From: an uncultured Verrucomicrobiales bacterium | GTDB lineage: Bacteria; Verrucomicrobiota; Verrucomicrobiia; Verrucomicrobiales; DEV007 | Reading direction: 5' to 3' | NCBI GenBank assembly: GCA_937891465.1 | Contig: CALAHF010000203.1 | Location: 1-37,484, forward strand | Length of the DNA stretch: 37,484 nt | Shown here: in pieces, positions 22,074 to 37,088 of the stretch | Position numbering within the stretch: the first letter of the stretch is position 1 | How the letters are laid out: each line of letters begins with the position of its first letter | The notes under the pieces: model-generated | What the model was told of the DNA's origin: nothing | The model's input: only the letters and a program-made list of their open reading frames with translations | The model's database searches: none | Translations under genes and position numbers: made by a program

Positions 22074-22898
22074 ATGAGCGCGCCGTCAGAAAGCGACGAC
22101 TTGGAAACTGCTTCAAAATTGGAGCGCATTCTTTCTGGGCGACGCATCTTCTTTCGTTTACTCAAAGGAATGGCCATCGGCATTCCAGTTGTCTTAGTTC
22201 TAAGCGTCATCGCTTTTTACGCATACGAAAATCACATCGGCGAAAAAGCGTGGCTCGAAACGAAGGCGAAATACGAGCAACAAGGACTCAGTTTTGATCT
22301 CGCTGACTTCGCCCCCGAAATGCCTTTAGAAGAGGAAAATTTTGCGAGGTGTAAAGTCATTCGATCACTGACTGATTTCACAAAAAGTAGCGGAGACCAT
22401 GTTTTGTATGACGATCCTGCAACACGAGATTCCTTTCTCAAAATGAAGGCTCCGAAACTCTGCGGCAAACGACCTGGAGGAAATTTCGAATACGGCCAAC
22501 CCATTGACTTAAATGTTTGGTCCGTGGCGTTCAGAGAAAGCGAGAATTGGAATTCGAATGATCCCTTTCAAACGTGGAATTTCGAAAAAATTCGGAAAGT
22601 AACCAGCGCGTATGACTCGCAAATTCTGGCACTGGCTTCTGAGTCGAAAGACCGCTCGTTCAATCAACTTCGAGTCGAATTCGGAGATACTTATTTTAAC
22701 CACAAGGGGTCAACAATACCCGACATTGGCGACCTTCGTGACTTCTGTTATTTTCTAAAAATTAGAGCAAACATCGCCAATCGCGGCGGCGATTCTGAAC
22801 TCGCACTTAAGTGCGTTCAGCTGATGCTAAAAATCGCTGATACGGTTGATTCCTCGCCATACTTGATTCACAACCTGGTTGCAGTGACGGTCCGCTGA
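22074..22898 (+). pseudogene. Membrane-anchored unknown protein, 5' part of a gene split by an in-frame TGA
   Basis: The N-terminal 274 residues of a protein I do not recognise by name. A charged head is followed by one membrane segment (about residues 35-50, MAIGIPVVLVLSVIAFYAY) and a soluble region with alternating helices (DFAPEMPLEEENFARCKVIRSL and LRDFCYFLKIRANIANRGGDSE). The frame stops at TGA 22896-22898 after LVAVTVR, then continues open without another stop to 23720 in the same frame. A single C-to-T change in a CGA codon would explain the stop. Assembly error or stop readthrough are alternatives. It starts 3 bp after the ABC ATPase gene. Confidence 0.65.
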
Positions 22899-23720
22899 TC
22901 AGCCGTCTCTGTAGTTTGGGACGGGATTGAGGACCAAACGTGGACCTCCGAGCAACTCAAATTAATCCAAACCGACCTTTACGAACCGCTTTGCATTACT
23001 CCGATGACAAACGCGTTTCATACCGAAGCGATTATTTCATTTTCACGCGGAGTGAATGACTTCCCTGAAAATAAAGAAATGATGAAACAATTAGGTGGGG
23101 CACAAATCATGGATGGATCGCTGAATCTCGGAAATTCATGCGGTTTCTTTCCAACCGGATGGTGGAATCAAAACCGCGTCATCGCAGTGACCGATATTTT
23201 TGAGAGCATTGTGATTCCCGGAAAAAATAAAGACTTAAAAAAATTAGTAAATTGTCCGGATTTCTATCCAATCGACGCCCCATATTCCCATACTTTTTTC
23301 TACAAAATTCATGCGTCTGCTTTCGACGGAATCGTAGCCCGAAACTTAGAAATCCAAACCAAAATCAACCTCGCCATCACGGCCTGCGCAGTCGAACGGT
23401 TCCGACTCAAAAACAATCGGCTGCCCGATTCAATCGCCGAACTAAAGGCCGCCGATCTCGGCGTGATTCGCGATGATTTTTACAATCCTGCTGGCGGACC
23501 ACTTCAATATCGCAAAGACAGCGACAATGGCCGGTACCTTCTTTACAGCTTCGGCAGCCATCAAATCGACAATGGCGGCACATCAAATCCAAGAAGTTCC
23601 GACAGCCCATTTAGTAAAGTAGACAGAAAGACCAGCGACATCGTCTGGCGTTATTCGTCCCCAAAAACCCTGAAGCTGAAGGAACTCTTCGATTCAGGAA
23701 AATGGAAAGCTGCACCGTAA
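22899..23720 (+). pseudogene. 3' part of the same gene, pseudopilin-like C-terminal region
   Basis: Continues the frame of the preceding part directly after the TGA, beginning SAVSVVWDGIEDQTWTSEQL, which has no start codon of its own until ATG 23004. If expressed separately it would give 238 residues. The C-terminal region (NLAITACAVERFRLKNNRLPDSIAEL, then NPAGGPLQYR and RYLLYSFGSHQIDNGG) resembles text common in PVC proteins and in type II secretion pseudopilin C-termini. The whole read-through protein would be 548 residues with one membrane anchor. Function is unknown. Confidence 0.65.
22903..22924 (+). other. 7-bp hairpin just after the in-frame TGA
   Basis: CCGTCTC (22903-22909) pairs with GGGACGG (22918-22924, one G-U pair) around an 8-nt loop, beginning 4 nt after the TGA at 22896-22898. 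A hairpin here could be chance, or could affect stop readthrough. It does not show a clear bacterial SECIS loop. Confidence 0.3.
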
Positions 23721-32126: not shown

Positions 32127-33284
32127 ATGAAATTCTTGTTCTTCTCGATTTTTATTTCTCTTTTTGGTTCAGCCTTCGCTGAAGAGCGCCCGTTCGTCGT
32201 TATTCACAAACAAGGCGATGCCGATTGCCACACCTTTCGGATTCCGGCGATTGCTCGAACCAATGACGGAACTTTACTGGCGACTTATGATATGCGTTAC
32301 ACCAGCAGACGTGATTTGCAGGGGCACATGGACATTGGGCTTTCGCGCTCTACAGACGGCGGAAAGACGTGGGTAGCGCCCTGCGCAATCATGGACATGG
32401 GTGAATTCGGCGGGCTTGGCCAGGATTTAAACGGATGCTCGGATCCAAATATTTTGGTCGATCCAGCGACAGGAGAGATCATCGTTTCGGCCTTGTGGAC
32501 GCATGGAAAGCCGGATACGCATCAATGGCGCGGGAATGGATCGGGACCGGGACACGAGATTGAAAAATCGACACAGTTCATGATGGTGCGATCAAATGAT
32601 GAGGGGAAGACGTGGTCGAAAACGGAGAATTGGACGAAGCGTTTGAAAGATCCGAAGTGGTATCTTTTTGCCCCTGCTCCGGGGAATGGCATTGCGCTGA
32701 AAGACGGCACCCTGGTGATGCCGACACAGGGGCGGGACGAGAAAGGGGAGCCGTTTTCGAATTTAATGTGGAGTAAAGATCACGGAAAAACGTGGACGCT
32801 TTCGACTGCGGCGACGCGAAACACCTCGGAGTGTGCCGTCGCCGAACTGAGCGATGGTTCGCTGATGCTTAACATTCGGGACAATCGAAATCGTTCAGAC
32901 AAATCGGAAACGAATGGTCGAGCGGTTCGTATTACCTCCGATTTTGGAAAGAATTGGACGGTCCATGCGTCGGATCACGGCGCGTTACCCGAACCGGTCT
33001 GCATGGCTAGCCTGATCAGTCACACGCTGAAAGACGGCAAGCGGGTTTTATTCTTCTCGAATCCGAACAGTAAAACAAAGCGCGCAAAAATGACCGTGCG
33101 GGTCAGTTTTGACGATGGAAAAACTTGGCCGGACGATAAAAAAATCCTGCTCGATGAAAAAGGCGGAGCCTACAGCTCCCTCGTAATGGTGGATGATGAC
33201 ACGCTCGGAATTCTCTACGAATCCTCGCGGGCCGACATGATATTTCAGACGATTGAGCTGTCGGAGTTTGGAATCACTCCTTGA
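32127..33284 (+). CDS. Exo-alpha-sialidase (GH33)
   Basis: A 385-residue exported sialidase that would release terminal sialic acid from glycoconjugates. A Sec signal covers 1-18 (cleavage after FAFA-like text SAFA). The family FRIP motif is present (37-40) with catalytic-triad arginine R38. Five Asp boxes of the SxDxGxTW type are seen (STDGGKTW 75-82, then SNDEGKTW, SKDHGKTW, TSDFGKNW, SFDDGKTW). The Tyr nucleophile in AYSSL (Y349) and its partner Glu in LYESS (E365) are in the standard spacing. It overlaps the convergent heme-binding gene by 11 bp. Activity on sialic acid rather than a related nonulosonic acid is inference from the motifs. Confidence 0.92.
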   Translation: MKFLFFSIFISLFGSAFAEERPFVVIHKQGDADCHTFRIPAIARTNDGTLLATYDMRYTSRRDLQGHMDIGLSRSTDGGKTWVAPCAIMDMGEFGGLGQDLNGCSDPNILVDPATGEIIVSALWTHGKPDTHQWRGNGSGPGHEIEKSTQFMMVRSNDEGKTWSKTENWTKRLKDPKWYLFAPAPGNGIALKDGTLVMPTQGRDEKGEPFSNLMWSKDHGKTWTLSTAATRNTSECAVAELSDGSLMLNIRDNRNRSDKSETNGRAVRITSDFGKNWTVHASDHGALPEPVCMASLISHTLKDGKRVLFFSNPNSKTKRAKMTVRVSFDDGKTWPDDKKILLDEKGGAYSSLVMVDDDTLGILYESSRADMIFQTIELSEFGITP

Positions 33285-36117
33285 AAGCCTTGTTATTCGC
33301 ATCGCCACCGCTCATGAGGTAGGCGACGAGATCTGCAAGTTCTTCGGGATTCAGCGTATTGATCAGGCCCGGTGGCATTTGCGAAACCGGGACTTGATCG
33401 ACTTTGGCCACCTCAGCGGTTTTGACTTTGATCGGCTCGGCAGTCGCGTCAGGTGGGTAAATCGCGAAGTCCTCGCCGTTCTCAACCGCGAGGCCGGTAT
33501 GGGCCTTGCCGTTCTTCAGCGTCACCATTGAAGAGCCGTATTGGTCGGAAATAGTTTTGCTCGGATCGATAATAGATTCGATGAGATATTTCCGATCGAA
33601 CTTGTTTTTCACACTCGTGAGATCTGGTCCAATCGCTCCGCCGAGTCCGTCGAAACGATGGCAGGCCGCACAAGCGGTGGCGTGAAACAAATTCCGTCCT
33701 CTTTCGAAACTGCGGCCTTTTCCGCGATTCCCAATTTCGGCGTTTGCTTCCGCGAGAGTCCATACCCGACCGGGGCCGACGGGCTGTTTGATTTCAAAAT
33801 CAGGCTTGGGATTGAAATCTTCGCCGGTGATTTCTGCAACCGCGGCTCGGTCGGCATCGCTGCAATTTCCGAGGGCTTCAGTGCGGATGTTGGCAAGGAA
33901 ACCGGGATAACTCGCGCCACCCGAAAACTTCGCGGCTTCGTTCAAAAACTCGAAATACTGACGGCGCGTTTCCGTTGTCCAGCCCCTGCGGGTATTACGC
34001 AGCATGAAGGCATAATTGATCTCGCGAGACGGCGGATGATTTTCGAGCACCTTCAAAATGGTGCCACCGTAACTTGGGTTTCGGCTTGCTAGCTCGGTCC
34101 AATCAGGAACTTCGGTTTCGCCTCGCTCCGTAATGAGCTTCATCGTTTTCGGAACCACGCTCGGTGCTTCGAGATAGGTGAGAACACGAATCAACTCGGT
34201 GTTCACATCATTATTTTCCGAAGGTAAAAGCGGATCAAGCTCCGAGATGATTTGCGCAGTTTCCGTGCGAGTTGGCTTTCCGAGCCGGATGAAATCCAGA
34301 GCGTAAGCACGAAGCAGTCCGAGAAGCTGTGGAGCCGTTAGTTTATCCGAATCAAGAGAAACCAAGGCAGCCGTCAGCCCAGCTCGGTGTTTTTCGGAGT
34401 CACCCATCCTCGCGAGCGCAACGGCTGCAGTGATTTTGGCCTGTGGATCTGATTCTGTTACAACTTGCTCAGCCCATTGATCGACTGGTTGTGATTCGAT
34501 CGCGACACGGGCGGCGTGGCGGAGAAAACGGTCTTCACTTGAGAGATATGGCCAAGCTTCTTCGACGGCTTTGGTATCTTCGACACCGTGGAATACTTCC
34601 AACGCGTTTCTCGTATTCACTGCGTCACTAGCAGATGTCACTTTGATTGATGCGGTTTTAGTGTCTCCCACATAACTCACCCGATAGAACGCCGACTGCG
34701 TATTCCGTCCACCGATCAGAAAATAGAAATTCCCATCATCCCCGATTTCCGCATCGGTAACCGGAAGCGGCGATCCATAAACCCACGGCTCAGCTTTTCC
34801 TTTGTAACCAGCGCCGTCTGCTTCGAGATGAATCACGTAAATCGTGCCAAAGGTCCAATCGAGCGCGTAGATCGCTTCCTGATATTTCGTCGGGAATTTT
34901 GTCCTGACTCCCGTGACAACTCCGGTCGGGCAGCCGGGGCCGATCTCAACAACGGGCGGCAGCGAGTCTTCGTAGTAGCTTGGCCATTTTCCTGAACCTG
35001 AGCGCCAGCCGTAATCGGAACCGCTCACCACGAAATTGATCCGCGTCGGGCGGTACCACGGCATGCCGAGATCCCACTCCATGTCTGCGTCATAGGTAAA
35101 CAAATCACCCATAGAATTTAGGGCGACGTCATACTGATTTCGATAACCGGTCGAAATGATATCGTGCGTTTTTGCTTCGGGGTCAAAACGCGAAACCCAG
35201 CCGCCCGGCGCAAGCTTCCCGCGCGCATGACCGCGTGCATCCCATTGGCGGGGAAGCAGCAAATCCTCATCCCACGACTGCACTCGTTTCCGCGTAATCG
35301 ATTCTTCCGGCGGTATTGGTGCGTGGTTTCCCCCATCAAGAAAAAGCCCCTTGCCATCCGGCGTGAGCGTGACCGCGTGATTGCCATGCTCGCCGCCCCC
35401 CGTTCCATTCGGCAGCTCTTCGATTTTGTCCAATTTGTCGTCACCATCGGAATCCGTCAGCTTGTAGAGAACGCCGCCATTTTTGTTGAAATACAATCCA
35501 CCGAATGCCCATTCCAAACCTTGCGCACCGCTTAAACCATCAAGTTCAATTTTTTCAACCTCAGTTTCGGCACCACTAACAGTAATGCGAAAAAGCCCCT
35601 GTTTTCCCTGATCGCAGGAATAAAATCGGCCCTTCGGATCTTTCGTTAGCGATACCCACGAGCCCTGTTCGTCTCGGGGAACGGTATAGAGCAACTCGAC
35701 CTTGAAGCCCTCTGCAACCGTGATGTCTTCCGATTCGATCGGACTTTTTTTCTGTGGCGTACGACCTCCCCCGCTACCTTTCGTGCCATTTGGAATTCCC
35801 CACGGACCGATGCCGATTTCGCCAAACGATTTCAGTTTTTCACTCCACGCGGGACTATCGAATCCCGCTTTTTCCCAACCATCAGCAGGCTTTGTATTTG
35901 TGCCTTTCCAACCGGCGGCCTTCGACGTGACGGTCAGTTTCTTACCGTCAGTGGTTTCGATATCCAATCGAAGGATGAATGCAGCAACGTCACCCTCGTT
36001 GGTTGCTGAAGCGGCAATCGTATTGGTACCCTTTTTAAGCAACTTTTCCAATCCGCTGCGATGAATCGGAAAATACCAATCGGGGCATTCGCCGATTTTC
36101 TCGCCGTTCAGGAACAA
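33274..36117 (-). CDS. PVC-type heme-binding protein with C-terminal cytochrome c domain, 5' end unresolved
   Basis: 947 residues from TTG 36117, but coding continues upstream: the same frame reads NDTAWLKSGEKPQWIWNE and LWLRHEFEIPADVKSA before this TTG, with no ATG, GTG or TTG until the run of A at 36269-36277. The N-terminus is a rhamnosidase-like beta-sandwich (FLNGEKIGECPDW...NTIAASATNEGDVAAF). Next is a dehydrogenase-like beta-propeller (VSLTKDPKGRFYSCDQGKQG), HEAT-like repeats, and a cytochrome c domain with CxxCH in FHATACAACHRFDGLGGAIG. It ends with LADLVAYLMSGGD. The product is most likely periplasmic. The missing start suggests fusion to the DUF1080 protein by frameshift or an indel. 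Convergent with the sialidase, overlapping 11 bp. Confidence 0.8.
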   Translation of the reverse strand: MFLNGEKIGECPDWYFPIHRSGLEKLLKKGTNTIAASATNEGDVAAFILRLDIETTDGKKLTVTSKAAGWKGTNTKPADGWEKAGFDSPAWSEKLKSFGEIGIGPWGIPNGTKGSGGGRTPQKKSPIESEDITVAEGFKVELLYTVPRDEQGSWVSLTKDPKGRFYSCDQGKQGLFRITVSGAETEVEKIELDGLSGAQGLEWAFGGLYFNKNGGVLYKLTDSDGDDKLDKIEELPNGTGGGEHGNHAVTLTPDGKGLFLDGGNHAPIPPEESITRKRVQSWDEDLLLPRQWDARGHARGKLAPGGWVSRFDPEAKTHDIISTGYRNQYDVALNSMGDLFTYDADMEWDLGMPWYRPTRINFVVSGSDYGWRSGSGKWPSYYEDSLPPVVEIGPGCPTGVVTGVRTKFPTKYQEAIYALDWTFGTIYVIHLEADGAGYKGKAEPWVYGSPLPVTDAEIGDDGNFYFLIGGRNTQSAFYRVSYVGDTKTASIKVTSASDAVNTRNALEVFHGVEDTKAVEEAWPYLSSEDRFLRHAARVAIESQPVDQWAEQVVTESDPQAKITAAVALARMGDSEKHRAGLTAALVSLDSDKLTAPQLLGLLRAYALDFIRLGKPTRTETAQIISELDPLLPSENNDVNTELIRVLTYLEAPSVVPKTMKLITERGETEVPDWTELASRNPSYGGTILKVLENHPPSREINYAFMLRNTRRGWTTETRRQYFEFLNEAAKFSGGASYPGFLANIRTEALGNCSDADRAAVAEITGEDFNPKPDFEIKQPVGPGRVWTLAEANAEIGNRGKGRSFERGRNLFHATACAACHRFDGLGGAIGPDLTSVKNKFDRKYLIESIIDPSKTISDQYGSSMVTLKNGKAHTGLAVENGEDFAIYPPDATAEPIKVKTAEVAKVDQVPVSQMPPGLINTLNPEELADLVAYLMSGGDANNKAFKE

Positions 36118-36233
36118 CGTCGCACCGTTGTCGCAAGTCGCGTAAATCGTCGCCGACTTTACGTCAGCGGGAATCTCAAACTCATGACGCAGCCAAAGTT
36201 TCTTCCCGGCATTTCTTTCATTCCAAATCCACT

Positions 36234-36278
36234 GTGGCTTCTCACCCGACTTCAGCCACGCTGTGTCGTTTTTTTTTG
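36234..36278 (-). other. Candidate -1 frameshift site between the DUF1080 and heme-protein frames
   Basis: The minus strand reads C followed by nine A then C (run at 36269-36277), which contains the A_AAA_AAA slippery heptamer in the DUF1080 frame. A -1 shift there changes KKTTQRG-stop to KKNDTAWLKS and continues in the heme-protein frame. A 6-bp stem, GTGGCT with AGCCAC (36254-36259 and 36234-36239), begins 9 nt downstream. Confidence 0.5.
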
Positions 36279-37088
36279 AGCCGGCGCTGCAGCCGCTTTC
36301 TTCCCTGCTTTTCCTTTGCCCTTCCCCTTACCTTTTGCGGGGATCGGTTTTGGTGCTGGTTTCGCGGACTTGTCAGAAATAGCAACTCCTTCAGCAAGCA
36401 CTGCCTTTGCTTCGTCGCCTTCGAGGTGACGTAGCTTCAGATCCTTAAAATTCACCCACATCGCAGGGCCAGCATGGAGCTGAAGACCAATCTGGCCTTT
36501 GGCAATCGCGTCCGGGTGATTCTCGGTGAGGTCCATTGTGATCTGGCCGTTCACAAAATGTAGAATGCGATCTCCAACGGCCACGACACGCAATTCATTC
36601 CACTCCGTATCGACCAGTTTTGCGTCATCACCAATCGCGTTGACAACTGCTTTCGATCCATCTGCCTTCGTGACGACTCGCTGACCACGCTGAGCAACGA
36701 TCCCGCGTTTGCCAAATTTCTCGCCGTAAAGCATTCCAAAATACTCAGCTTTTGGGTGAAGGTCAGCCTGATAACCAGCCATCACAAAATTCGCTTCATC
36801 GACAGTGTTCGACCGATACATCACGCCCGAATTATTCCCGCCGAATTTCACCTGGCAAGTGAACTCAAAATCAGTCACCACTTCGTCCTGAAGAATCAGA
36901 AACGTGTTTCCCTTGGTCGGCTTCGCTTCCGTCGTTTCACCAAAAATCGTTCCGTCTTTCACACTCCAGAAATCAAGCCCTTTCCAGCCATCGAGAGATT
37001 TTCCATCAAAGAGCGTTTTCCACTCACCGCCCTGCGCGGAAGTCAATGCAACGGCCAAAGCCACAAAAATGGGAATCAGTTTTTTCAT
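36252..37088 (-). CDS. DUF1080 (3-keto-disaccharide hydrolase-like) exported protein
   Basis: A 278-residue protein from ATG 37086-37088; a GTG-like earlier start at 37199 would add 37 residues and run through an intergenic repeat, so I rejected it. A Sec signal covers MKKLIPIFVALAVALTSAQGG. The DUF1080 lectin-like jelly-roll shows EWKTLFDGKSLDGWKG, FSVKDGTIFGET-like text, FEFTCQVKFGGNNSGVMYRS and GQIGLQLHAG. It ends in a low-complexity tail rich in K, G and A, more typical of an interdomain linker than of a C-terminus. The family has been linked to 3-keto-disaccharide hydrolysis; substrate here is unknown. The stop comes 5 residues after a nine-A run. Confidence 0.85.
   Translation of the reverse strand: MKKLIPIFVALAVALTSAQGGEWKTLFDGKSLDGWKGLDFWSVKDGTIFGETTEAKPTKGNTFLILQDEVVTDFEFTCQVKFGGNNSGVMYRSNTVDEANFVMAGYQADLHPKAEYFGMLYGEKFGKRGIVAQRGQRVVTKADGSKAVVNAIGDDAKLVDTEWNELRVVAVGDRILHFVNGQITMDLTENHPDAIAKGQIGLQLHAGPAMWVNFKDLKLRHLEGDEAKAVLAEGVAISDKSAKPAPKPIPAKGKGKGKGKAGKKAAAAPAQKKTTQRG

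Follow-up and report, generated by a model that had tools for sequence, protein, structure and literature searches.

A DUF1080-heme-binding fusion gene broken in its linker in one Verrucomicrobiales assembly: very probably an ordinary lesion, with an A-rich slippery heptamer as bystander

Fused PF06439-TIGR02603 proteins of Verrucomicrobia and Planctomycetes are the closest known relatives of the gene described here, which has the same domain order, a similar low-complexity linker and around 50-76 % identity to them; they are, however, uninterrupted, while our copy carries a frame break in the linker, next to a run of nine A (A9). Among recoding systems, dnaX-type -1 frameshifting, with its A_AAA_AAG heptamer, stem and Shine-Dalgarno-like stimulator, resembles the locus in having an in-phase A-rich slippery heptamer, but the locus has neither a conserved stem nor a conserved out-of-frame arrangement, and its homologs read straight through. 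Transcriptional slippage on nine A or T (PMC1088944) involves a run of the same length; in the sister genome, however, that run is in frame and slippage is not needed. The singleton frameshifted genes and pseudogenes found with GeneTack (PMC3711429) show the same kind of single-genome transition, whose position and direction are not conserved in relatives, and from these our locus does not differ in any apparent way. Surveys of frame transitions in prokaryotes counted 4010 pseudogene clusters as against 146 recoding clusters (PMC3711429), and the prior therefore favours a reading other than recoding.

The locus lies on the minus strand of the window, i.e. the whole 37,484-nucleotide stretch analysed, which belongs to a draft, probably metagenome-assembled genome of 229 contigs. 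Its DUF1080 frame starts at an ATG (37088) and ends in ...AAAAPAQKKTTQRG and a TGA, five residues or 15 nt past a run of exactly nine A. The -1 frame, translated past the run, gives (S)KKNDTAWLKSGEKPQWIWN..., in a fuller reading SKKNDTAWLKSGEKPQWIWN..., and continues as coding sequence to 33274. This frame is open from 36327, directly after a TAA, and contains no ATG, GTG or TTG before the TTG at 36117, codon 54 past the junction. A preliminary description of the locus had reported the switch of frames, with the stop five residues beyond nine A, and a coding -1 frame lacking an early start codon, and both observations hold. The frame switch exists in the given sequence, and the recoding motifs around it are near background.

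Table 1. Features of the interrupted fusion gene (positions in the window; G001, sister genome)
Feature	Position	Strand	Basis or remark
DUF1080 / 3-keto-disaccharide hydrolase half (PF06439) and linker	36255..37088	-	Pfam, translation, G001 comparison
Downstream half, -1 frame	33274..36279	-	Profile matches, G001 comparison
A9 run	36269..36277	-	Same length in G001, in frame with downstream half
Linker segment between identical anchors	36285..36307	-	23 nt in window, 27 nt in G001
Outer bounds of any frame switch	36252..36330	-	TAA 36330..36328 to TGA 36254..36252

The DUF1080 half carries a signal peptide (MKKLIPIFVALAVALTSAQGG) at its start, followed by an N-terminal PF06439 domain (Pfam, E 1.3e-36), and ends in a K/G/A-rich linker (KPAPKPIPAKGKGKGKGKAGKKAAAAPAQ). 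The downstream half comprises a beta-sandwich (residues ~26-162), a propeller (~247-519), HEAT-like repeats (~528-656) and, at its C-terminal end, a CxxCH cytochrome c domain (859-990). The last of these matches the TIGR02603 heme-binding domain with 101.9 bits (cut-off 68.15; motif CAACH), the beta-sandwich resembles part of the rhamnosidase model NF041573 as well as a lectin domain, and the HEAT-like repeats match alphaRep designs. With 58.0 bits against a cut-off of 122.2, the propeller appears related to the TIGR02604 model but is not a member by that model. Neither a start codon nor a signal peptide was found at the beginning of the downstream half. Since c-type cytochromes require export for heme attachment and the sole export signal lies on the DUF1080 half, the downstream half is sensible only as part of a fusion: on its own it could not reach the compartment where heme is attached.

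When related genomes were searched at the protein level, the best relative was found in G001, where an open frame of 1313 codons covers the match and, counted from its ATG, encodes an uninterrupted fused protein of 1276 residues. In around 30 further loci, from Verrucomicrobia and Planctomycetes, a single reading frame runs from DUF1080 through a low-complexity linker, which varies between loci, into the downstream half; the remaining loci have the downstream half alone, with an N-terminus of its own and beginning just before the beta-sandwich. The junctions of all fetched loci were read, a few genomes being counted twice, under a handle and an accession, and the window was the only locus with the halves of a fused gene out of frame at the junction. 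The proposal that both frames belong to a single protein, with the order DUF1080, linker, beta-sandwich, propeller, HEAT-like repeats and cytochrome c and a length of about 1270 residues, is thus confirmed by the continuous fused genes for which a homolog search had been suggested; the same search yielded no homolog with a conserved out-of-frame A-run at the junction, the A9 of G001 being in the downstream frame. Two candidates for a second case were rejected: L091 has a separate DUF1080 match, distant at 35 % identity, that precedes a stand-alone gene, and in L028/L054 the frame changes inside the sandwich, next to undetermined bases (N) and away from the junction. The latter locus, a fused homolog of Akkermansiaceae UBA6138 (L028 ~1501; L054 ~3452), apparently contains an assembly gap. 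The literature search found no paper describing a DUF1080-heme fusion. In the window's own genome, the same heme-binding domain has around 40 paralogous matches, which sit in long open frames, and such breaks are therefore uncommon there.

To place the break, we compared the linker with that of G001, the sole congeneric genome in the comparison, so that the exact linker comparison rests on a single pair. The junction of G001 reads ...TCC GGC TCA AAA AAA AAC GAC CCG..., in which GGC TCA AAA AAA AAC GAC encodes G S K K N D. A 20-nt block containing the A9, CCGGCTCAAAAAAAAACGAC, is identical in the window and in G001, which translates it directly in the frame of the downstream half, so the run is in frame at a length of nine. 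Upstream, a second identical anchor, GGCAAAGGAAAAG, is in the DUF1080 frame in both genomes. Between the anchors the window is 4 nt shorter, i.e. -1 modulo 3, and because of this spacing the difference of frame falls in the GC-rich linker (36307-36285) and is not slippage of the A-run. A switch upstream of ~36290, which would make the downstream frame read REESGC..., is made less likely by residue composition, a criterion that has no resolution within 36257-36287. Parsimony would thus place the lesion immediately ahead of the run, in GC-rich sequence, and leave the A9 as a bystander. The 20-nt block was also considered as a conserved slippery element and rejected, as identical blocks of 20-26 nt occur elsewhere in the gene, with synonymous sites saturated.

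The evidence of selection is in line with a young break. Compared with G001, the DUF1080 half shows 79 % identity over 250 codons (dN 0.13, dS 2.4) and the downstream half 76 % over 999 codons, with dN/dS values of about 0.06 and 0.09, respectively, which are rough because dS is near saturation. Of the 66 columns invariant in eight homologs, 62 are kept in the window copy. Relative-rate counts with seven outgroups were 8 versus 3 for the first half and 9 versus 19 for the second (z 1.5 and -1.9), i.e. without clear acceleration on the window branch. Both halves are, as these ratios indicate, under strong purifying selection, and this, together with the lack of acceleration on the window lineage, argues for a lesion that is recent or artefactual. 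Selection would have acted on the entire gene up to a very recent time, or would act on it still if the break is a draft error.

The preliminary description had put forward, besides a homopolymer indel, programmed -1 ribosomal frameshifting on A_AAA_AAA, which would yield a short DUF1080 protein and the fused protein at a set ratio. Several of its ingredients are present: an X_XXY_YYZ heptamer in the zero frame, A_AAA_AAA, lies in correct phase within the A9, a 6-bp pairing (GTGGCT/AGCCAC) is possible 9 nt downstream of it, both as had been described, and the downstream frame is clearly coding without a start codon. Comparable signals are, however, common in the window, where 44 in-phase X XXY YYZ heptamers occur in 10926 codons of its genes, four of them AAAAAAA, and 4.8 % of random 60-nt windows contain a perfect stem of at least 6 bp at the equivalent position. 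The stem is absent from the predicted RNA structure, folding is unexceptional (z = -1.33; 21 of 200 shuffles fold equally well) and in G001 two of the six pairs are broken, C-A and G-A replacing G-C and C-G in a by-eye alignment. Thus, neither of two features expected of programmed -1 frameshifting was found, namely a stable conserved downstream structure and, among the ~30 fused loci, all of them in frame, a frame switch conserved among homologs. As for an upstream Shine-Dalgarno-like stimulator, the linker is rich in purines and a match there would carry little weight. With G001 reading the same A9 directly into the downstream frame, the proposal is unsupported and we regard it as extremely unlikely. 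Transcriptional slippage at the A9, by which an extra A in some mRNAs would let a genuinely broken gene still yield some full-length protein, is also very unlikely, if less so. Nine A are regarded in the literature as a potential slippage site (PMC1088944), and the run falls within the only interval where a change of frame works. Against this, there is no sign of selection: a conserved out-of-frame run of at least nine A or T was not found among the homologs, and in G001 slippage could do nothing but harm, its run being in frame already. A further 16 A9/T9 runs in the genome are located in open frames longer than 200 codons, no closer than 60 codons to either end, and have a positive coding score on both sides; A9 is therefore tolerated here, without general miscounting or recoding, and slippage would at most be a fortuitous rescue.

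The simplest sequence error, a true run of ten A from which one was lost by error or mutation, is unlikely, though it is the most probable of the alternatives to a linker lesion. Long A runs are prone to both mutation and error, and one added A would join the frames as A-Q-K-K-N-D. In G001, however, nine A follow the same seven bases (CCGGCTC) in the downstream frame, and ten A would therefore require the linker to have changed as well, in compensation. Runs of this length are also rare in the genome (251 A8, 42 A9 and two of ten or more), which possibly reflects a mild shortage of runs of ten. Of the earlier suggestion that ten A in the true sequence would leave a simple fused gene, the fused gene stands and the tenth A does not, given the nine A of the sister. 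In favour of the ten-A reading, or at least against a lesion in the linker, it can be said that a low-complexity linker could have changed phase twice, leaving room for a lost A, and that one sister genome carries the exact comparison. Two separate genes, one for a short DUF1080 protein and the other for a heme protein translated from TTG 36117, have the lowest probability of all. A stand-alone downstream half is known in many relatives, but these forms typically have an apparent signal peptide of their own in addition to their start before the sandwich, whereas the downstream frame has its first start codon within the conserved sandwich and lacks an export signal, and the 54 codons preceding it are conserved with G001. 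Finally, one could imagine that the lesion is fixed in the species and that the ancestral in-frame A9 was co-opted for slippage, which, whether transcriptional or translational, would then set the ratio of secreted DUF1080 protein to DUF1080-heme fusion; this we consider highly improbable, placing it between slippage as a mere rescue and programmed frameshifting.

Further observations concern other parts of the window and of its genome. A sialidase/BNR-like gene (32127-33284, plus strand), identified by eye from repeated SxDxGxTW motifs, is convergent to the fused gene and overlaps its 3' end by 11 nt. At 22074-23720 (plus strand), a 549-codon frame for a membrane-anchored protein of a paralogous family contains one in-frame TGA (22896-22898), a site that is open in the homologs of G001 and others, with residues S, D, A, N or R. 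This TGA is probably a nonsense mutation or an error, which would make it a second broken gene in the window. The genome encodes SelA (G000:C45:3328-4680, L174; 496 bits, above the cut-off), and a weak tRNA-Sec match, under the gathering score, lies at the extreme end of a contig (G000:C113:2-73, L175). Although the use of selenocysteine is possible in this organism, a selenocysteine reading of the TGA is unlikely, as the site is not a conserved Cys/Sec position.

Taken together, the locus is very probably an ordinary fused gene with a linker lesion in one assembly, due to error or very recent mutation, and not a case of programmed frameshifting. A net -1 (modulo 3) lesion would have arisen shortly before the A9, in a linker of low complexity and high GC content, either as an assembly or consensus error or as a very recent mutation, and we infer that it is without function. 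The case illustrates that a slippery heptamer can be a bystander, since the in-frame run of the sister genome shifts the break into the linker. Were the break real and fixed, the locus would exemplify the conversion of an in-frame A-run into a regulatory slippage site, which nothing here supports. For annotation, the two predicted genes are best merged into one fused gene marked as interrupted, and the locus should be left out of counts of recoding; the single gene would encode a periplasmic DUF1080-linker-beta-sandwich-propeller-HEAT-cytochrome c protein.
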